From Acidobacteriota bacterium (lineage in GTDB: Bacteria; Acidobacteriota; UBA890; WLXD01): a stretch of 64,000 nt of DNA. The position numbers and the translations under genes were made by a program. Positions 772-59,204 of the stretch are shown one piece after another. The stretch's first letter is position 1. Each line of letters begins with the position of its first letter. The stretch spans positions 124,001-188,000 of the forward strand of contig WLXD01000001.1 in the NCBI GenBank assembly GCA_012103255.1. Direction: 5' to 3'. Below the pieces are notes generated by a model, which was given only the letters and a program-made list of their open reading frames with translations, searched no databases and was not told the origin of the DNA.

Positions 772-2159
772 CGCAAGGCGCCGAAGTCAACGCGCCACTC
801 GACGAGCTTTTCACCAGCAACCGGGTGGTGCTGCCCGAGGGCGAAGTGCAGGCGGCGGTCGGGATTCGTGACGGACTGATCGCGTGGGTGGGTGACGCCA
901 CTGAGGCACCCGCGTCCACGCGAGTCACCGAACTTGGCGATCTTGCGCTCTTGCCCGGCGCGGTGGACACCCACGTGCATATCAATGATCCCGGGACCGA
1001 CTGGGAGGGCTTCACGACCGCGGGACGCGCGGCCGTGGCAGGCGGTGTGACCACGCTTGTGGACATGCCGCTCAACAGCCTCCCCGTGACCACCACTCCG
1101 GCGGCACTCGACGCCAAGCGGATTGCGGCCCGTGATGGGTGCGCGGCGGACCACGGCTTCTGGGGCGGAGTCGTGCCAGGGAACCTCGACCAGATCGACC
1201 CTCTTGCCGACGCCGGCGTCCTCGGATTCAAGTGTTTCCTGTCGCCGTCGGGACTCGATGAGTTCGCGGCCGTCAGCCGAGACGACCTCGCAGAGGCGAT
1301 GCCGGCAATTGCCGCCACCGGGCTGCCGCTACTCGTGCACGCCGAGTCTCCTGACCTACTGACCGATCTCCCCGTTGGATGCGCAATCTACGCGGACCAC
1401 GTCGCGTCGCGGCCACCCGCCGCCGAGGTCGCCGCAATCGAGATGATGGCCGAGCTCTCGATCGCCGCTGGGTGCGCGGTGCACATTGTTCACGTTGCGT
1501 CGGCAGAAGCCGTCGGCGCCGTGCGCGCGGCACGGGCCGCGGGAGCTTCGATGACCGCGGAGACGTGTCCGCACTATCTGACCTTTGCCGCCGAGGAGAT
1601 CCCGCACCTGGCGTGCGCATACAAGTGCGCTCCGCCCATCCGGCACGCTGCCCACCGTGACGCCTTGTGGCGCGGTCTTGAAGAGGGCGCGCTCACACTC
1701 GTCGCTACCGATCACTCTCCCTGCCCTCCCGATCTCAAGCACCTCGACACCGGCGATCTCTGTCGGGCATGGGGTGGTATCGCGTCGCTCCAGGTCGGAC
1801 TCCGCGCGACTTGGACGGGTCTGGTGGCGCGCGGAGGCGGACTTGCGACGCTGATGCAATGGATGGCGCATGCGCCCGCCCAGCTGGCTGGGCTCGACAG
1901 CCGCAAGGGGTCCATCGCGCGAGGATTCGACGCCGATCTGGTGATCTTCGATCCCGACCGGGTCGAACGAGTGGAGGGGGCAACTCTGCAGCATCGTCAT
2001 TCGACCACGCCCTATGAAGACCTCGAACTGCGCGGCGTGGTGCTGGCCACCTACCTGCGGGGCGCGCGGGTATACCATCGCGACGAGTCCGGCACGGCAG
2101 TGTCGGACGTGTTTGTCGATGAACCCCGCGGCATGGATCTCTCGTGCCGCACGCCCTGA
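768..2159 (+). CDS. allB: Allantoinase
   Basis: A cyclic amidohydrolase of 463 residues that opens the allantoin ring to allantoate in the cytoplasm. Visible metal-site motifs in order are VDTHVH (His69, His71), the lysine that is carboxylated in this family (Lys155 in GFKCF), His191 in LLVHAES, His242 in IVHVAS, and TDHSPC with Asp315. CPHYLTF at about 267-273 is the usual dihydroorotase/allantoinase segment. The frame is open further upstream, but GTG at 768 overlaps the preceding stop as GTGA, gives the family's usual length and is the best start. The next gene begins 13 bp after its stop. The order allB-alc-uraD-uraH supports the allantoinase assignment over hydantoinase or dihydroorotase. 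Confidence 0.93.
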   Translation: MTQGAEVNAPLDELFTSNRVVLPEGEVQAAVGIRDGLIAWVGDATEAPASTRVTELGDLALLPGAVDTHVHINDPGTDWEGFTTAGRAAVAGGVTTLVDMPLNSLPVTTTPAALDAKRIAARDGCAADHGFWGGVVPGNLDQIDPLADAGVLGFKCFLSPSGLDEFAAVSRDDLAEAMPAIAATGLPLLVHAESPDLLTDLPVGCAIYADHVASRPPAAEVAAIEMMAELSIAAGCAVHIVHVASAEAVGAVRAARAAGASMTAETCPHYLTFAAEEIPHLACAYKCAPPIRHAAHRDALWRGLEEGALTLVATDHSPCPPDLKHLDTGDLCRAWGGIASLQVGLRATWTGLVARGGGLATLMQWMAHAPAQLAGLDSRKGSIARGFDADLVIFDPDRVERVEGATLQHRHSTTPYEDLELRGVVLATYLRGARVYHRDESGTAVSDVFVDEPRGMDLSCRTP

Positions 2160-2172
2160 ACACGGACTCGGC

Positions 2173-3147
2173 GTGAGCGAAACCCGAAGCAATACTCTTG
2201 GCCTCGTCGACTTGGCGTCCGCTCGCCTTGGCGGCCGGGTGCTCGATTCCAACGACGATTTCTTTGCGGCCAAGGAGAACCTCATCCTGCCGTCAGAACC
2301 GGTCTGGATCGAGGGCAAATACACCGATCGCGGCAAGTGGATGGACGGCTGGGAGTCCCGCCGGCGCCGGACTCCGGGACACGACTGGTGCACCGTGCGG
2401 CTTGCCGCGATGGGCCGCATCGAGTCGTTTCTCGTGGATACCGCGCACTTCACCGGTAACTACCCGGAGGCCTGTTCGGTGGAGGCCTACCGTGGCGCGG
2501 AAGACCCGGACGCCGATAGCGAATGGGTTGAACTCCTGCCGCGGCAGGACCTCGAGGGCGACTCGCGCCACAGCTTTGCCGTTGATAGCGAAGAGCCGTG
2601 GACGCACGTGCGACTCAACATCTTCCCGGACGGCGGTGTGGCGCGGCTGCGCGCGTTTGGCTTCGTCGCTCCCGACTGGCCGCGCATTCTGGACACCACC
2701 GACCTGACTGATGTCGCCTGCGTGCTGCATGGCGGACGGGTGACCGACTGCAGCGACCGCTTCTATAGCGCTCCTGAAAACATGCTCCTGCCCGACGATT
2801 CAGAAGGGATGCACGATGGCTGGGAAACCAAGCGACGCCGCGGCCCGGGACACGACTGGTGCGTCATTCATCTCGGACGACCCGGCCTGATCCGCCGCGC
2901 CACCGTGGACACGGCGTTCTTCCGAGGCAATTTCCCCGATCGCTGCAGCCTGGACATCGCCAACGTTGCAGACGGCGGGAGTCCTGGCGACGACGACTGG
3001 CAAAGCGTTCTCCCGGAAACTGCGCTGCAGGCCGACACACGCCACGAATTCGATCTGAAGCGTCCGGCCGTCGCTACCCACGCAAGGCTCAACATCTATC
3101 CGGATGGCGGCGTCGCGAGGGTCCGACTCCTGGCGGAAGTCGAGTAG
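2173..3147 (+). CDS. alc: Allantoicase
   Basis: A 324-residue protein built of two tandem jelly-roll allantoicase domains. Each contains the same signature: GKWMDGWESRRRR then GHDW in the first half, and GMHDGWETKRRR then GHDW in the second, each followed by an R/K-I-containing strand and a D-T-A-x-F-x-G-N-x-P segment. The family hydrolyses allantoate to ureidoglycolate and urea. GTG at 2173 is chosen because it follows the allB stop by 13 bp and gives the normal length with the N-terminal VDLASARLGG block; longer versions would read through allB sequence. It is the fourth step of the urate route encoded here. No ureidoglycolate lyase or amidohydrolase is visible in this window, so the fate of ureidoglycolate is open. 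Confidence 0.93.
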   Translation: MSETRSNTLGLVDLASARLGGRVLDSNDDFFAAKENLILPSEPVWIEGKYTDRGKWMDGWESRRRRTPGHDWCTVRLAAMGRIESFLVDTAHFTGNYPEACSVEAYRGAEDPDADSEWVELLPRQDLEGDSRHSFAVDSEEPWTHVRLNIFPDGGVARLRAFGFVAPDWPRILDTTDLTDVACVLHGGRVTDCSDRFYSAPENMLLPDDSEGMHDGWETKRRRGPGHDWCVIHLGRPGLIRRATVDTAFFRGNFPDRCSLDIANVADGGSPGDDDWQSVLPETALQADTRHEFDLKRPAVATHARLNIYPDGGVARVRLLAEVE

Positions 3148-3153
3148 CCCCCG

Positions 3154-3678
3154 ATGGAGATCCCGCCGCTCTATCCGGCGCTCGACGCGTTAAACGCGCA
3201 CTCGCATGCCGAGGCCGTTGCCGATTTCCGGCAATGCTGCGGCGCCACGACCTGGGCCGAAGCCATGGCGGCTGGGCGCCCCTACGACGGTCCTCATTTC
3301 GTCCACCTGCTGGCGGACACGGTGCTCGACCGGCTCGCCCGTGAGGACTGGCTCGAAGCCTTCGCAGCCCACCCGCGCATCGGGAAGCGCCACGCCGACG
3401 CAGCTTCCGACAACCCGACGGAGTGGTCCGAACAGGAACAAGCGGGAATGGCCGACGCCAACGCCTCGGTGCGCGACCGCCTGGCCGCGGGCAACGAGGA
3501 GTACTTCGAGCGCTTCGGCTACATCTTTCTGATCTGTGCTACCGGGCGAACCGCGGAAGAGATGCTCGCCGCTCTCGAGAAGCGCCTACAGCACGAGCCC
3601 GACCTGGAACTCGGTGTGGCCTCGGCACAGCAACGCTTGATTACCCACCTCCGGTTGGACAAGCTGCTCGCACCATGA
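3154..3678 (+). CDS. uraD: OHCU decarboxylase
   Basis: A 174-residue all-helical 2-oxo-4-hydroxy-4-carboxy-5-ureidoimidazoline decarboxylase, which turns OHCU stereospecifically into (S)-allantoin. The AHPRIGKRH segment contains the catalytic His73 typical of the family, followed by SEQEQAGM and the FGYIFLICATGRTAEEML stretch that holds the substrate-binding residues. It starts 6 bp after the alc stop, and its own stop overlaps the start of uraH as ATGA. That arrangement places both steps after urate oxidation in one translationally coupled unit. Confidence 0.93.
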   Translation: MEIPPLYPALDALNAHSHAEAVADFRQCCGATTWAEAMAAGRPYDGPHFVHLLADTVLDRLAREDWLEAFAAHPRIGKRHADAASDNPTEWSEQEQAGMADANASVRDRLAAGNEEYFERFGYIFLICATGRTAEEMLAALEKRLQHEPDLELGVASAQQRLITHLRLDKLLAP

Positions 3679-4021: not shown

Positions 4022-5320
4022 TCAGCCGCGACGGTTGGCGACGATCTTGGCGAACGATCGTGACCGGAACTCGTCGATCGTCAGGCCGGTGGCTGTGGCC
4101 TCTTCCTCGGTAATCGCGCCGCAGTTCACGCCGCGCAGAAAGAAGTTGAGTAGGCCCTGGCCGGTGGCCGCGTCGTCGAAGACATCTCCAACAAGCGTTG
4201 CCTGCGCGGCGACCGAGACGAAGTTGTGGAGACGCTCCGAAGCGGCGGCGAGACTTTCGAGAAAGAAGGCATATACCGCGGCATAGCGCGTGGGCAGCTG
4301 CGCCGGGTTCAGGTCCCAGCCCTGATAGAACCCGTGTCGTAGGGAGTGCCGGCAGTGCTGATAGTGCAGCTTCCACGCGTCGTGGAAGGAATCGGTCGAG
4401 CCCACCGGGATCACGTTGGTAGCGCCGTCCGACAGCCACACGCCGGTGCCGGCGAGCGCGACCTGCATATGGTGCCGGGCGAAGTCGCAGGCCGGGTGGT
4501 CGAGACTCTGGAACTGCGCGGTGATGCCGCAAGAGGCCGTGTAGTCGTAGACCCCGAAATGGGCGGCCACGCAACGGCCGTCCGCAGCGTCCACCAGGCC
4601 GTAGAGCGCGCTTGATCCGTCCGGGGCAAGAATCGACTGCGGGGTCTCCACCATGATCTCGAGCTTGAGACTGCCCGCGGCAAGGCCGTTGGCCGACTCG
4701 AGCTGTGCCAGCAGGTCGACGAGCATCTTCACCTGTGTCGGTGACGTCACCTTGGGCAGAGTCACGACGAAGTTGTCGGGAAGACTCCCCTCGCCCGCCT
4801 TGGCCAGCTGAGTAACGAACAGATCGAGCGTGCGCACGGCGCGGCGTTGGGCCTCGCCAGCGAGCGCCTTGATCCTGATGCCGATGAATGGCGGCAGGGC
4901 GTCGTTTTTCATCCCCTCGATCGCCGCGGCCGCCGCACTCACCGCGGTGGCATCTTCCTCATCATCCGGACGGTTGCCGTAGCCATCCTCGAAGTCGATG
5001 CGGAAGTCCTCAACGGCCTCGCGCTCGAGCTTCGCGCGCACCCGGCTGTAGAGCGTCGCACGAAGATCCGCGTCCGCCGCCAGGTCAATCGCATCAGCGA
5101 ACGTGTCGGGGTCGGGCCCGTGATCGTCGAGGGCAGCAAGGGCCATGCTGCCAAGGCGCTGCGCGGTGCCCGAGCGGAACAACTGGGCGCCACCGTAGAC
5201 CGTATGCACCGGCTGTCGATCAGGCGACTCCCCTGGATATGCGGCTGTATGGTCGGCGTCGATGGCGGCCACGTCACGGCCGATCGCGTCGCGAAGATCG
5301 TCGCTGAAGGTCCTTTTCAT
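4022..5320 (-). CDS. DUF6986 aldolase-like (HpcH/HpaI superfamily) protein
   Basis: A 432-residue protein that looks like a TIM-barrel aldolase of the HpcH/HpaI/citrate lyase beta group. DFEDGYG lies near 110-116, a metal-binding glutamate appears in MVETPQSI, and an aspartate in HFGVYDYTASCG. I recall this family (DUF6986, sometimes labelled phosphoenolpyruvate kinase) beside allantoin-degrading genes in Actinobacteria; its reaction is not established to my knowledge. Here it is the last gene of the leftward xanthine dehydrogenase operon, 12 bp after the FAD subunit, and it faces uraH. The position suggests a role in handling ureidoglycolate or glyoxylate at the end of the pathway, which is inference only. 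Confidence 0.75.
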   Translation of the reverse strand: MKRTFSDDLRDAIGRDVAAIDADHTAAYPGESPDRQPVHTVYGGAQLFRSGTAQRLGSMALAALDDHGPDPDTFADAIDLAADADLRATLYSRVRAKLEREAVEDFRIDFEDGYGNRPDDEEDATAVSAAAAAIEGMKNDALPPFIGIRIKALAGEAQRRAVRTLDLFVTQLAKAGEGSLPDNFVVTLPKVTSPTQVKMLVDLLAQLESANGLAAGSLKLEIMVETPQSILAPDGSSALYGLVDAADGRCVAAHFGVYDYTASCGITAQFQSLDHPACDFARHHMQVALAGTGVWLSDGATNVIPVGSTDSFHDAWKLHYQHCRHSLRHGFYQGWDLNPAQLPTRYAAVYAFFLESLAAASERLHNFVSVAAQATLVGDVFDDAATGQGLLNFFLRGVNCGAITEEEATATGLTIDEFRSRSFAKIVANRRG

Positions 5321-5332
5321 GGAACTCTCGAA

Positions 5333-6163
5333 CTAGCTGAAGGAGTCGCAGATCGGCTGCAGCGCATGGTAGAGCACGCGCCCGAAGACGCGGAGACGGT
5401 ATGCACCCGTCGAACGGATGTCGTCGATCGGAGTGAGATCTTCCGCGATTGCGTCGGCAAGATCGTCCGGACCGGCGACCGCCGTGCCGGCAGCGACGAG
5501 CGTCTCTACAGCGGCGCAGCGGCAAACGGTGGGAGCCATGCTGTTGGCGACAATGCGCCAACCCTCGGACGAATGGGCATAGGCAAGACCGACCTTGGTG
5601 ATTGCCTGCGCGGCGCGCGACCCGACCTTGATGAAATCCTGGTGGTCGTGCGCTCGAAGCGGCACGCGCACGGCCGTGATGAGCTCTTCCGGCCGCGCCT
5701 CGAGTTGCTTGTAACCGTGATAGAAGTCCGCGAGAGCGACCACACGCTCCCCGCCGTCGCGGCTACCGAGAACCACTTCGGCGTCATAGGCCATCAGCGC
5801 CGGAACGCCGTCGGCCGCGGGCGACGCGTTGGCGATGTTCCCCGCCCAGGTGCCGCGCGTCTGGATCTGCACCGCCCCTACGGTTGCCGCGGCCTGCGGC
5901 AGAAGCGGCAGTGCCGTAAACCGCGCATCGCGGATCACGTCCCAGTAGGTGGCAAGAGCACCCAGCTCCACAAAGTCGTCGCGGAACTCGACCGTGCGGA
6001 GCTCGTTGAGGTGAGAGAGATCCAACCAGGTCCGCTCATGCATCTCGTGGGCGCCCGGCCAGTGCACCATCGCATCGGTGCCACCGGCGATCGGCCACGC
6101 GTCGGGCTCCGTAGCTTTGAAGGCCAACGCATCTTGAAGCGAGGACGCGAGATGCACGCGCAT
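5333..6163 (-). CDS. Xanthine dehydrogenase, FAD-binding subunit
   Basis: A 276-residue medium subunit of a molybdenum hydroxylase. The N-terminal FAD fold shows AGGTDAMVHW at 26-35 (pyrophosphate-binding loop) and the second FAD loop TRGTWAGNIANASPAADGVPAL, where the GN-ASPAAD pattern is characteristic. The rest matches the C-terminal flavoprotein domain of carbon monoxide dehydrogenase. It passes electrons from the iron-sulfur subunit to NAD or another acceptor. The ATG at 6163 overlaps the stop of the 2Fe-2S gene as ATGA and gives the expected N-terminus; a longer frame reaching 6226 would read antisense-like sequence of its neighbour. Confidence 0.92.
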   Translation of the reverse strand: MRVHLASSLQDALAFKATEPDAWPIAGGTDAMVHWPGAHEMHERTWLDLSHLNELRTVEFRDDFVELGALATYWDVIRDARFTALPLLPQAAATVGAVQIQTRGTWAGNIANASPAADGVPALMAYDAEVVLGSRDGGERVVALADFYHGYKQLEARPEELITAVRVPLRAHDHQDFIKVGSRAAQAITKVGLAYAHSSEGWRIVANSMAPTVCRCAAVETLVAAGTAVAGPDDLADAIAEDLTPIDDIRSTGAYRLRVFGRVLYHALQPICDSFS

Positions 6164-6627
6164 CAGTCCGCCTCCTGACCTGACGGCAGTTCGATGCCGT
6201 CGATGATGCCGTCGTAGCCCGTGCACCGACAGAGGTTGCCCGCCATCAGCTGGCGCAGGTCGAACTGCGCGAGTAGCTCAGGGTTGGCCTCGGCCCAGCG
6301 GGCGGTCATGACAACGCCCGGAGTGCACGCTCCGCATTGCGTTGTCCCCGCGTCGAGCATGCGCGAGACATCCTCGGGCGTCACCGACTCGATCGTCACG
6401 ACTTCGCGACCGCGCGCCTGCCATGCAGGCACCAGGCACGAGTTGGTCGGGAGACCGTCGAGGAGCACCGTGCAGGCTCCGCACTCACCTTCGCCGCAAC
6501 CTTCCTTGGTTCCGGGGCAGTCGATTTCATACCGCAGCACGTCGAGAAGGCGCGCCCGCGGTTCGACCTCCAGCGTGCGCAACTCGCCGTTGAGCTGAAA
6601 CTCGATCTGTATCGGCCGATCGTTCAT
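6163..6627 (-). CDS. Xanthine dehydrogenase, 2Fe-2S subunit
   Basis: A 154-residue small subunit with both [2Fe-2S] clusters. The plant-ferredoxin-type cluster is formed by the cysteines of KEGCGEGECGAC plus a downstream Cys in NSCLVPAW, and the helical cluster by TQCGACTPG and LCRCTGY. The subunit relays electrons from the molybdenum centre to FAD. Both ends are coupled: its start overlaps the stop of the large subunit as ATGA, and its stop overlaps the start of the FAD subunit the same way. No signal peptide is present, so the enzyme should be cytoplasmic. Confidence 0.95.
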   Translation of the reverse strand: MNDRPIQIEFQLNGELRTLEVEPRARLLDVLRYEIDCPGTKEGCGEGECGACTVLLDGLPTNSCLVPAWQARGREVVTIESVTPEDVSRMLDAGTTQCGACTPGVVMTARWAEANPELLAQFDLRQLMAGNLCRCTGYDGIIDGIELPSGQEAD

Positions 6628-8823
6628 GTGCCGACTCCCTCGACCAACTGCATCAGGCGCTCCGGCGTGAGAGGAATATCGAGCGGCTCGACGCCCAGCG
6701 CGTCGGCCACCGCATTCGCCACAGCGGGAGCGGGTCCGTCGAGTGGCAGTTCGCCGATTCCCTTCGCGCCCAATGCGCCGTCGGCGTACGGATTCTCGAG
6801 AAACACCACGTCGATAGGCGGCACATCAGCCGATGTCGGGATGATGTAGTTGGTCAGCTGATTGTTGATCATCGCCCCATCGCGAAGACGGCACTCCTCG
6901 AAGAGCGCCCAGCCGATGCCTCGCACGATGCCGCCCTGGATCTGGCCGCGTGCCAACGTCTCGTTGATCACGTGGCCGATCTCCTGGACGCTGTGGAAAG
7001 CGGTGCAGCGTGCGCTGTAGGTGCGGAGGTCGACTTCCACTTCCGCCAGGTAGGCGGCCCAGGCGAACGCGCCGCAGGCAGCACCGCGGTAGTTGTCATC
7101 GTCCCAGACGACACCGGGCGGACGCTCGTACTCGGCTTCGGCGACCAACTCCTCATCGGGATGGCTACGGTGCCACTCACGGATCGCGTCGCGCAGCGCT
7201 GTGCCGCGCAAGGCGCGATCCCCGACCTGCGTGGCGAGGTCGGTGCACGCGTTGTCGAGAATCTTGCCGACAACCATCGATGTCCGCGAAGCGACGGTCG
7301 GCCCACTATCGGGTACGCGGTGAGTATCCGGAACCGCCACCACGACTTCCGTGGGCGGGAAGTCGAGCCGCTCCGCAGCGATCTGCGTGAACACCGTTTG
7401 CGCCCCTTGCCCCATCTCGGTTGAGGCCGAGAGGATCTCGACGCGACCGTCGGGCAATCCGGCAACGGCGACACGCGAGGCCAGGTAGACCTCGCCCGCG
7501 CCGGTAAAACCGGCCCCATGGTAGAAGGTCGCCAGACCCATGCCGCGGCGCAGATACGGGTGCGTCGCGTTGAACTCCTGGTGCGCCGCCCGCCGCCCGC
7601 CGCTCGTCGTACTCGGCGCGTTCGAGCGCGAGGTCCATCACGGCGACCCGGTCTGTGCCGTCATCGATCACCTGACCGGTGGAGGTCTCCTGACCGTCGC
7701 GAATCAGATTGCGGCGCCTCAACTCCACAGGATCGAGTCCGGCGGCGCGCGCCACCACGTCCATATGGCGTTCGTTGGCGTACTGCGTCTGCGGCGCGCC
7801 GAATCCACGGAAAGCGCCGTAGGGAACGGTGTTGGTGAGCACCGCCTCCCCCGTGATGCGCACGTTGTCGCAGGCGTAGGGCCCGGCCGCGTGGATGATG
7901 CCGCGACTCAGGACGACCGGTGAGAGCGTCTGGTACGCCCCACCATCGAGCACCACTTCGATGTCCTGCGCCACCAGCCGGCCGTCGGCATCGAGGCCGG
8001 TTCGGTGGCGCACGCGTGACGGGTGCCGCTTGGTTGTCGCGGCCATGTCCTCGTCGCGGTCATAGATGAGTTTCACCACCCGGCCCGACTTCATCGCGAG
8101 CAATGCGACGTGGATCGCGATTACCGACGGGAACTCTTCCTTGCCACCGAATCCGCCGCCGGTAGGCGCCCAGATCACGCGCAGATGGTCGCGATCCAAT
8201 CCCAGCGCCCGTTCGGCCGCGTTGACGATGTAGTACGGACACTGCATCGACCCTTGCACGGTGACCACGCCATCTTCGACCCAGGCCGCCATGCCCTGGG
8301 TCTCCAGGTAGACGTGCTCCTGGGCGCCGGTCTCGTAGGTGCCCTCGACAACCTGGTGCGCTCCCGCAAGAGCAGCTTCGACATCGCCCTTTTCAATACG
8401 GAGACGCTTCAGCACGTTGTCGTCGCCACGCTGAACCTGGGCCGGCGTGGGCGGGACGCGGAAGTCGAACACCGGCTCCTCGGCATCGACGACGATCTCG
8501 ATCTTCTTTGCCGCCCGCCGGACAGCGTCGCGCGAGTGATGCGCGAGGAGCAACACCGGCTCGTGGATGTGCCGTGTTTCGCCTGCGGCCAGAACCGGCT
8601 GATCGCCCTCGAGCACGAAGACCGTGTTCTGGCCGGGGATATCGGTGTGGTCAACGATCGTGAACTCCGACCAATCCACGTCGTCGGCAAACCGAACCTC
8701 GCGAATGCGTCCCCGCGGCGATGGACTCCGTACGGTCGCGCCCCACAGGTGGTCGCCCAGATCGAGGTCGTCGATATAGCGCTCGCGGCCGGTCAGCTTG
8801 GCGACGCCTTCGAGACGCTTCAA
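6624..8823 (-). CDS. Xanthine dehydrogenase, molybdenum-binding subunit, interrupted by a frameshift
   Basis: The large subunit oxidises hypoxanthine and xanthine to urate at a molybdopterin centre. Its N-terminal part (start at 8823, MKRLEGVAKLTGRERYIDDL) contains GGGFGGKEE, the typical Mo-cofactor loop, and AFRGFGAPQ. It stays in one frame until the tandem repeat at 7584-7603. The C-terminal part (HQEFNATHPYLRRGMGLA, then STEMGQGAQT and GAKGIGELPLDGP) lies in another frame and ends at 6624. Both halves are well conserved and abut with nothing missing: removing one 7-bp repeat unit restores a continuous protein of roughly 725 residues, which is normal for the family. As read here the product would be truncated near residue 505 after a missense tail. 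It is the first gene of the leftward operon. Confidence 0.85.
7584..7603. repeat. Heptanucleotide tandem repeat at the xanthine dehydrogenase frameshift
   Basis: Nearly three copies of CGCCGCC stand head to tail: two full units at 7584-7590 and 7591-7597, then CGCCGC at 7598-7603. Because seven is not a multiple of three, gain or loss of one unit changes the reading frame of the gene on the minus strand. The two conserved halves of the molybdenum subunit meet exactly at this repeat. Confidence 0.9.
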
Positions 8824-8939: not shown

Positions 8940-9770
8940 ATGAGTCCCGAGCTCTACGAATGGTCCAACCTGATCCTGCGCTGGCTGCACGTGGTCGCGG
9001 CCATCTACTGGGTCGGCCAGACGTACCTGTTCGCGTGGCTCGACGGGCGCTTCGCGCAACTCGAAAGCGCCGCCGACGGCAGCAGCGACGGCGTGTGGAT
9101 GGTGCACAGCGGGGGCTTCTACCGCGTCGAGAAGGCGACCCAACCCGCCCACCTTCCGCCCCGGCTGTACTGGACCAAATGGGAGTCGCTACTTACCGGG
9201 ATCAGCGGGATCGGCCTGCTCGTCGTCTACTACTTCGGTGGGCTCATGCTGCCGCGCGACTCAGAGCTGTCACTCATGGCGGCTGTCGGGATCGGAATCG
9301 GCACTCTGGTGGTGGGCTGGTTCACCTACGACACGCTCTGGAACTCGCCACTCGGGAAGAACGAGCCCGTGGCTGTGACCCTTTCGTTCGCGCTGCTGGT
9401 CGTCGCAATGTGGGGTCTCTCGATGACGCTGTCGGGACGCGCCGCCTTCATGCATGTCGGTGCCATGCTCGGCCTGATCATGGTCTCGAACGTCTGGGAG
9501 CGGATTCTCCCGAGTCAGCGGCAGATGATCGCGGCGCTCGAGAAGGGCGAGCCGATCGACCAGCGACTCGCTACGCGCGCCAAGCTGCGATCCAAGCACA
9601 ACGGCTTCCTGTCGATACCCGTCGTGCTGATCATGCTGAGCAACCACTTCCCCACCACCACGTACGGGCACCGAGCCAACTGGCTGATGCTCGCCGTCTT
9701 CTTGCTCGCCGGGTGGGGCGTGCGCTACTTCATGAAGTGGCTAGAGGACCGAGAGCCGGCTGCTGGCTAG
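8940..9770 (+). CDS. puuD: Urate hydroxylase PuuD, membrane core without the cytochrome c domain
   Basis: A 276-residue polytopic membrane protein that matches the PuuD (DUF989) urate-oxidising family. Visible landmarks are LRWLHVVAAIYWVGQTYLFAWLD, then HSGGFYRVEK, LPPRLYWTKWESLLTGISG, and a late NHFPTTTYGH segment; about seven to eight hydrophobic helices are seen. The family oxidises urate to 5-hydroxyisourate and normally carries a C-terminal cytochrome c domain that takes the electrons. Here the protein ends soon after the last helix (KWLEDREPAAG) with no CxxCH. ATG at 8940 is preceded by AGGGAAGG. It is divergent from the dehydrogenase that makes urate, with a 116-bp shared upstream region. 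Confidence 0.9.
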   Translation: MSPELYEWSNLILRWLHVVAAIYWVGQTYLFAWLDGRFAQLESAADGSSDGVWMVHSGGFYRVEKATQPAHLPPRLYWTKWESLLTGISGIGLLVVYYFGGLMLPRDSELSLMAAVGIGIGTLVVGWFTYDTLWNSPLGKNEPVAVTLSFALLVVAMWGLSMTLSGRAAFMHVGAMLGLIMVSNVWERILPSQRQMIAALEKGEPIDQRLATRAKLRSKHNGFLSIPVVLIMLSNHFPTTTYGHRANWLMLAVFLLAGWGVRYFMKWLEDREPAAG

Positions 9771-11410
9771 CGGGTTGCGGTCTCCAATAGCTGTTCCATC
9801 GCGGTTCCGTCGCCGGTCATCTCCCAGGCGATGAGCGCCATCGGAATCGGGCCGGCTGCGAGGAACGTATCGTGGTACTCGCCGAGATCGAAAGCGTCGC
9901 CGAGCTGCAATGCTCGCGCAGATAGCAACGACTCCATCTGTACCTTGCCCATCACGTAGTTCATTCCGTACGTCGGGCGGCGCAGATAGATGGCCAGGTC
10001 GTAGCGCGCCAGGTCGGGCTCCATGAGTGGGACTTCCTCCACGAGGTAGTCGATGGCCTGCGCGAGATCGATGTCGCCTGTCTGCATCGCCAGTTCTGCG
10101 GGAACGCGCGCGGCGCGCTTGAGCTGTGCGATGTAGAAGAGTTCCTTCGAGCGCGGGCGGTCGTCGAGCATCCCGGCCTGCAGGAACATCTCCTCGATGT
10201 AGAACGCCCAGCCTTCCGCCCTCACCCCGTCGCGGTAACGGCTGCGGATCGGGTTGGTGTTGCGACGCTGCACGAGCCCGTCGAAGCGGTGGCCCGGGAT
10301 GGAAGCATGAACGTGATTGTTGAGTGGGTCGCGGTAGGTGATCTCTTCCCAGAAATGACGCTGGCCGCCTTCGCGGACGATCCAGAACGCGTCGGTCTCG
10401 AAACGCTCCGGCAGTCCTTCTGGAATCGAGACGAGTTCGTTCTCGGTCATGAACGCGCGAATGTGTGCCTCGGCCTCTTCCACACGGGCGGCGTGCTCTT
10501 CGGCGCTGGCCACCGGCACAATTTCCGGCAGGTCGCGGTTGCGGTAGCGCTCGATGGCCAGGAATGTGCGCGTGCGTTCGAGCTCACGTGTGGCAATGGT
10601 GCGCAGGTCTTCGGCATCGAAAGGCATGAGCAGGACGTTCTGCAGGTACCACGTGTAGTTGTCGAGTCCGATCCACGCCGGGGTGTCCATGCCGGCGCGA
10701 TTGGCGACCAGCCAGTCGCGATAGCCCTGAACTGCCGCAAGGGCGGCCTCAGCTGCGGGCGCCAGATCTGGAGCGTCGGCAGCCACGCGGGCAACCAGGT
10801 CTTCGTACCAGCCGATAACTCCCGCCGGTGGCACCGCGCGACGCGGCTCACCCTGGTTCACACCGTCAGACATCTCCATCTGCCGAATCGCCATGCCCGC
10901 CAGTTCTGACGAGGCGTCCGTCAGCCAGTCTTGCGCGGCGGCGAGCACACGGGGAATCCGCTCCAGCGCGGCGCGTGCCGCATCCGGGTCTTCGGTCGGA
11001 TCCAGGTACGCCGTGCGGCGCACGAGATCCACTGCGAGGCCCGGGTCCCGTGCCCACCCGCGTACAACGCGAAGATCGAAGTCGATCGCGTTCAGCTGCG
11101 CCCATACGAGCAGGTAGTCGATCTGCTGGCTCACCGGCCAGGCCGAGGGGTCCAGAGCCCGCAGCTGCTGGCGCAGATCACGTTCGGCAGCGCGTCGGCT
11201 CTCGACGGACCCAGCAGAGTAGTCTGGCACCCCATCCACAGCGGCCACCCGGCGGACCTGAACCGCCTGCTCGAATATCGCGACGAGCGCTTCGTAGTCG
11301 GCCGCTGCCTGGACGGTCTCGGCAGTACCTGTTGCCGAAGCCTGCACCTGGGGCACGGTGACGACCAGGGCCAGAAGCGCGAGGAGCGTGTGTCGGATCT
11401 TGCGTTGCAT
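9767..11410 (-). CDS. Secreted DUF885 family protein, probable metallopeptidase-like fold with altered catalytic motif
   Basis: This 547-residue protein starts with a signal peptide (MQRKIRHTLLALLALVV, cleavage near QASA). It has the general DUF885 layout: a helical N-terminal half, then a zinc-like motif and EGWAFYIEEM (usually EGWALY). DUF885 proteins normally show HE-x-x-PGH; this one reads HASIPGH at 368-374, so the expected catalytic glutamate is alanine (codon GCT, at least two base changes from Glu). It may be an inactive or repurposed member. The start at 11410 is chosen because it begins the signal peptide. Its stop overlaps the convergent puuD stop. Its upstream region is shared with the divergent PadR gene and contains an inverted repeat at 11493-11524. 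Confidence 0.82.
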   Translation of the reverse strand: MQRKIRHTLLALLALVVTVPQVQASATGTAETVQAAADYEALVAIFEQAVQVRRVAAVDGVPDYSAGSVESRRAAERDLRQQLRALDPSAWPVSQQIDYLLVWAQLNAIDFDLRVVRGWARDPGLAVDLVRRTAYLDPTEDPDAARAALERIPRVLAAAQDWLTDASSELAGMAIRQMEMSDGVNQGEPRRAVPPAGVIGWYEDLVARVAADAPDLAPAAEAALAAVQGYRDWLVANRAGMDTPAWIGLDNYTWYLQNVLLMPFDAEDLRTIATRELERTRTFLAIERYRNRDLPEIVPVASAEEHAARVEEAEAHIRAFMTENELVSIPEGLPERFETDAFWIVREGGQRHFWEEITYRDPLNNHVHASIPGHRFDGLVQRRNTNPIRSRYRDGVRAEGWAFYIEEMFLQAGMLDDRPRSKELFYIAQLKRAARVPAELAMQTGDIDLAQAIDYLVEEVPLMEPDLARYDLAIYLRRPTYGMNYVMGKVQMESLLSARALQLGDAFDLGEYHDTFLAAGPIPMALIAWEMTGDGTAMEQLLETATR

Positions 11411-58086: not shown

Positions 58087-59204
58087 TCAGTGACTGTGGC
58101 GCTCGTAGTGCTGCCGCAGCAGATCCTTGCCGTAGTCGTTGCCATTCGGGGTGCGAACCACGGTGTGGATGTGGTTGCGCGTCGGCCCCTCGGTGTCGAG
58201 AGCGATGCCGCCCTGATGATCGAACTCGATCAGAAGTACGGGGCTGTGCACGCGGTAGTAGAAGACCGCGTCGTCTGACGTGGCGCCGGCCCAGGCGAAG
58301 TACGTCCGATCGAGATGCTCGCGCACTTCCATCATCTTGATGGCGGCGTGCTCCTCGGCCATGTTGCCAACGTATTCGGCGATCAGATCCAGCAACATGG
58401 CGGTCTGAGCAGCATCGAGTTTGTCGGCGCGGATGCCCTCGTAGCGCATCTCGAAGTTGTCGCGGAACGCCGCCGTGAAGATGCCGCGAGGCAACGTGTC
58501 CGAGATCACCGCCTGCTCGCGTTGGTCCGCGGTGAGCGATCGGCCGAGCGCCAACCCCTTCGTTTCTTCGCGTTCGAACACGCGCGTACCGGCGTACTTG
58601 CCCGACTCGGCCACCACCGGCTCGGAGCCCATGAAGGTGGGGGTCATCACGACCTGGTCGCCCAGGACGAAGTAGTTGACCACCAGGTGATGACCGTCGA
58701 GCTGCCAACCCCAAGGCTCGAACTCCGACGGCTCGCCCATGATGGTGAAGTGATAGAGGCCTTCGCCGTATTCATCCCAGCGCTCGGTCAACTCACGGAT
58801 CGTTTCGTTGAGCCGCATGATGTCGCGCGTAACAGGTCGAGCGCCGCTTCTTCCTGCACCTCGCTCATTTCCCAGCGCGCGATGCCCTTGCGCTCGTACC
58901 GATGGATGTTGTGCCAGTCGCGCCACTCGATGCTGTCGGCGGCGAACGTCGTTTTCGAATGCTGCGCTTCTTCGAGCGACTCCAGGAACGTACGGGCAGC
59001 GTCTATCACCGGCAACGTCGAAACACCCGTGGTGCTGATTTCGAACAGACCTTCCGCGGGCGTACCCGACTCGGTCACTCCAATGAAGGGCTCGGCCAGG
59101 GCCTCGGCTGCGCTGCGACGCTGGTACTCAGCGGCATACGCCGCGGCAGCTCCGCACGCGGCGAGCAGGCCGGCGACTGCGACTTTGTGAACTCGTGACA
59201 TCAC
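58087..59204 (-). pseudogene. DUF3500 gene broken by a frameshift
   Basis: Two adjacent minus-strand frames together make one DUF3500 protein. The first (start 59204) has a signal peptide (MSRVHKVAVAGLLAACGAAAAYA) and runs to [15 protein letters not shown], then goes out of frame and stops at 58788. The second carries [54 protein letters not shown] through to HSH at 58087; GEPS-PWGW-x-x-DGHHL is the family hallmark. The join lies near 58825-58840. Compared with the family as I know it, a few residues between the two parts also seem to be missing, which would indicate a small deletion at a CGCGA repeat rather than a single-base slip. A sequencing error remains possible. Confidence 0.75.

Follow-up and report, generated by a model that had tools for sequence, protein, structure and literature searches.

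A frame-breaking 7-bp tandem duplication, real or artefactual, in the molybdenum subunit gene of a xanthine dehydrogenase-type enzyme from an Acidobacteriota bacterium

At the repeat hotspot of Escherichia coli lacI, a short unit whose length is not a multiple of three, repeated about two times, gains one more copy, breaking the reading frame in a way that can be reverted by loss of a unit. Tandem heptamers whose copy number could alter expression are found at contingency loci of Haemophilus influenzae and Neisseria. The phase-variable heptamers of H. influenzae hmw1a and hmw2a run to 13–38 copies and lie upstream of the genes, and a survey of that species required at least three uninterrupted units before a 7-bp repeat was counted (PMC2651432). 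Genes subject to phase variation are mostly of the surface-exposed kind (PMC3711429). Nicotinate dehydrogenase offers a different precedent: its molybdenum (Mo) subunit comes as two pieces, NdhL and NdhM, in an evolved two-chain arrangement (PDB 3hrd). Finally, genes that are frame-broken in one assembly and intact in relatives, many to an assembly, are known as assembly-induced pseudogenes. Assembly errors account for many bacterial pseudogenes (Cooley and Wright, PMC11017572), and in the GeneTack survey one class of frame-shifted singletons was expected to be sequencing errors (PMC3711429).

The locus described here resembles each of these in part. It shares with the lacI hotspot the addition of one more copy to a roughly twofold repeat of a short, non-triplet unit, although the unit here is 7 bp. 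It shares tandem heptamers with the Haemophilus and Neisseria loci, but has only 2.86 copies, which lie inside the gene for a metabolic enzyme and are not conserved. Its Mo subunit is parted at the same linker as NdhL/NdhM, whereas the second piece here lacks translation start signals of its own. Like the assembly-induced pseudogenes it is frame-broken and intact in relatives, in an assembly with many such breaks, but the lesion is a precise tandem unit and not a single-base indel. Whether real or an artefact, the locus is a tandem duplication of an ordinary kind that breaks the frame of a metabolic gene.

The gene, on the minus strand from 8823 to 6624 of a 64-kb stretch of contig WLXD01000001.1 (the whole stretch analysed, hereafter the window), encodes the Mo subunit of a xanthine dehydrogenase-type enzyme. 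The a/b hammerhead, MoCoBD_1 and MoCoBD_2 domains occur in order, all scoring over their Pfam cut-offs, and are spread over two frames. MoCoBD_1 and MoCoBD_2 are in different frames, with the break in the linker between these two molybdopterin-binding domains (Table 1). The upstream open reading frame starts at a TTG codon preceded by GGAGG, and the downstream frame carries the GxGE motif, which is the site of the family's catalytic glutamate. The frame changes inside an exact 20-bp tandem tract of a 7-bp unit, CGCCGCCCGCCGCCCGCCGC (2.86 copies, 100% match). Across the site the upstream frame reads YDERRAA and then GGAPGVQR, while the downstream frame reads RRAAHQEFNATHPYLRRG. A codon-usage hidden Markov model (HMM), built from this genome with no information on the repeat, placed the switch at 7590–7600. 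The domain frames and the blind HMM agree with the initial annotation, which had the two halves of the subunit in two frames meeting at 2.9 copies of CGCCGCC. As a minor correction, the tract stops one base short of a full third unit (20 bp instead of 21).

Table 1 Features of the Mo subunit gene and its purine-breakdown neighbourhood (window positions).
Feature	Position	Strand	Remark
Allantoicase	2014..3147	+	purine-breakdown context
OHCU decarboxylase (UraD)	3154..3678	+	urate-breakdown context
DUF6986 protein	4022..5320	-	HpcH/HpaI aldolase-like; same cluster
FAD-binding subunit (FAD_binding_5/CO_deh_flav_C)	5333..6226	-	intact; part of the same enzyme; actual start probably near 6164-6178
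2Fe-2S subunit (Fer2/Fer2_2)	6163..6627	-	same enzyme; intact
Downstream frame (MoCoBD_2 with GxGE motif)	6624..7604	-	opens after stop at 7640
Exact tract, 20 bp, 2.86 heptamers	7584..7603	-	place of frame change; coding strand GCGGCGG GCGGCGG GCGGCG
Upstream frame (a/b hammerhead and MoCoBD_1)	7306..8823	-	native to ~residue 410, then ~94 out-of-frame residues to stop

The tract is the sole perfect 7-bp array reported by TRF in the 64-kb window, and its 20-mer occurs once in the 4.81-Mb, 9-contig genome. A second allele was not found elsewhere in the assembly, which holds a single one. Under an order-2 Markov model of the genome, ~0.17 exact period-7 runs of at least 20 bp are expected per 1.2 Mb; the position of the repeat exactly at the frame break is therefore not due to chance. 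In the 1.2 Mb of genome examined, no heptamer array in coding sequence exceeded this tract in length.

With exactly 7 bp discounted, the gene reads as 730 residues that align end to end, and without a gap across the site, with the six closest relatives (57–76% identity). These comprise a genome of the same genus (76%), one of the same family (68%), a Gemmatimonadetes MAG (70%), two Phycisphaerales MAGs (65–68%) and a Planctomycetota MAG (57%). The Mo subunit is intact and in one frame throughout in all six, and the heptamer repeat is absent at this place from every one of them (0/6), the codons there being different. The gap-free alignment and the absence of the repeat from the relatives indicate that 7 bp were gained in this sequence, bearing out the gain of one unit that had been proposed from the sequence alone. 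A one-base indel at the site was rejected, as it would leave two extra residues in comparison with the relatives, which fit only a 7-bp difference. Identity to the same-genus relative is nearly equal for the two halves (78% and 75%), as is GC3 (0.81 and 0.80), and neither flanking half contains a further stop or shift. The break is thus either recent or an artefact. With one lesion, intact orthologues and no further decay, the gene has the profile of a recent frameshift pseudogene, provided that the organism's DNA carries the lesion.

The genes for the partner FAD and 2Fe-2S subunits adjoin the Mo subunit gene (5333–6627), in keeping with membership of this enzyme family, and the three-gene enzyme belongs to a purine-breakdown cluster. 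Xanthine dehydrogenase models gave the best NCBIfam matches, yet neither half taken singly reached the curated cut-off, and the genome search had the same outcome. The initial assignment to xanthine dehydrogenase is well supported by context, with xanthine as the presumed substrate on the strength of the purine-gene neighbours. Two other family members are found in the genome: the copy on contig C7 is intact, and the large subunit of the copy on contig C2 is broken by a single base (~C2:973690). Beside the enzyme genes, at 8960–9790, lies a divergent membrane protein with no Pfam or NCBIfam match, which by eye we presume to resemble the membrane urate hydroxylase PuuD.

The frame-switch scan yielded 23 candidates in 1.2 Mb of this genome, or ~20 per Mb (19 per Mb), a rate that is approximate because only part of the candidates were checked against relatives. 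HMM candidates at C1:31483, the G-rich tail of a DEAD-box helicase, and at 76518 and 366801, both ordinary gene boundaries, were false. The two largest comparison samples, of 400 kb each, contained 0 candidates (genome G031) and 2 candidates (genome G041, 5 per Mb). Small samples of other genomes mostly had 0 or 1, and one of them, from the G+C-rich genome G034, had 6 in 80 kb. G034 is of the same phylum as the present genome, its sample (C15:1-80000) corresponds to ~75 candidates per Mb, and three in-frame TGA codons lie in its match to the xanthine dehydrogenase family. The 400-kb sample of G031 (C23:1000001-1400000) contained 35 exact tandem repeats of period 7, many more than the other genomes examined. 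The window itself has a second frame break at 58824–58830, at a CG dinucleotide run in a minus-strand gene with a DUF3500 match. Four of the frame breaks in the 1.2 Mb, the present one included, fall on an exact tandem duplication, with lengths of 7, 11, 16 and 23 bp; those of 11, 16 and 23 bp are at C1:51817, C1:702640 and C1:825472, in kinase-, sortilin- and PAP2-like genes.

The initial annotation had offered three explanations, namely inactivation, assembly error and an on/off switch of purine breakdown; the first two are viable, and the switch found no supporting evidence. A phase-variable contingency locus would toggle the enzyme within the population, under selection, as slippage takes the tract back and forth between two and three units. 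The mechanism would allow a tract of this kind to slip, and every gain or loss of a unit that is not a multiple of three shifts the frame. The latter property had been read as a natural frame switch, but every non-triplet repeat shares it and it does not speak for a function. The tract has fewer than the three uninterrupted units of the H. influenzae survey, none of the six relatives has a length-variable repeat, or any repeat, at this place, the assembly contains just one allele, the 1.2 Mb examined has no coding heptamer array of greater length, and the enzyme is metabolic and intracellular, all of which makes a contingency locus quite improbable. We give a little less credence to a split but working enzyme, whose two pieces would be made separately and then assembled as in nicotinate dehydrogenase. 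Among solved structures, the upstream half is indeed matched best by 3hrd chain A, the large molybdopterin subunit (query 4–403 to chain 15–415 of 425), and the downstream half by chain B, the medium subunit, from its residue 3; an in-frame ATG, the first past the repeat, is available at 7541. By analogy, a two-piece enzyme is physically thinkable. However, there is no ribosome-binding site near this ATG, its methionine is not conserved (relatives read G-L-G-L or G-I-G-L), the upstream piece ends in ~94 foreign residues and the Mo subunit is fused in all close relatives; the missing ribosome-binding site and unconserved methionine leave an internal restart, giving a separate downstream subunit, unsupported. 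It is less probable again that a slip-prone heptamer in the linker lets the gene flicker between the fused and an NdhL/NdhM-like two-piece form, in which case purine oxidation would vary from cell to cell in the population although no repeat is dedicated to contingency. The least probable reading is that programmed ribosomal frameshifting or transcriptional slippage yields the full protein. A G-rich repetitive stretch does lie at the frame transition, but the close relatives do not share the transition and no recoding signal was seen: there is neither a classic slippery heptamer nor an A/T run, and the surrounding 60 nt form no stable stem (z = +1.67 with DNA parameters). With all close relatives reading through in one frame and no fold, programmed frameshifting was rejected.

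The weightier alternative is an assembly or consensus error, in which the organism's gene would be intact and the extra unit would have entered through faulty reads or during consensus building, at a repeat made up of G and C alone. At most 1–3 in-frame stops were seen, and 7 of 20 frameshifts lay near homopolymers of at least 4 bases, against 12% expected (P = 0.007); this excess of frameshifts over nonsense mutations, combined with the homopolymer enrichment, favours consensus error. The frequency of candidate breaks across the assembly, the 1-base break in the paralogue on contig C2, the break in the DUF3500 gene and the lack of decay in the downstream half of the Mo subunit point the same way, and we regard such an error as a serious possibility that falls somewhat short of an even chance. 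Against it, the lesion is the precise gain of a 7-bp unit and not a homopolymer indel, and there are exact tandem duplications at other breaks. By our estimate, those of 16 and 23 bp are far beyond chance (base match probability ~0.27), and exact tandem duplication at a break is a lesion typical of replication slippage and unlike base-calling error, and so more like real mutation. The broken genes are also mostly dispensable: nearly all are accessory (FtsX/MacB permeases, sulfatases, tyrosinase, DUF885, PAP2, AcrB, DctM and others), with one arguable exception, a Cys/Met PLP enzyme that may be biosynthetic. Housekeeping genes made up ~5–8 of 40 in a length-weighted random sample; the accessory-gene bias is borderline (Fisher P 0.02–0.10), and this housekeeping comparison is a weak test that depends in part on judgement. 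Weighing these points, we rank a real slip mutation slightly ahead of consensus error, and give about an even chance to a recent slipped-strand loss-of-function allele that arose by chance mutation at a slippage-prone site and is not an evolved switch.

If a slip mutation is the correct explanation, the starting state would have been a near-duplicated G+C-only stretch, GCGGCGGGCGGCG, of 1.86 units. Replication slippage, recently and in the sequenced strain or population, would have extended it to 2.86 units and put the two molybdopterin-binding domains into different frames. The predicted product is a ~505-residue protein lacking MoCoBD_2 and the catalytic glutamate, its foreign tail included, and the enzyme would be lost until one unit is lost again.

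Either way, the locus makes a modest annotation point and reveals no new mechanism. If the break is an error, pathway predictions from this assembly need care, since extrapolation gives ~100 candidate frame breaks. If it is real, the lesion could revert by loss of one unit, and the strain is without this Mo subunit while keeping the genes for urate and allantoate breakdown, and may start purine breakdown from urate rather than xanthine.
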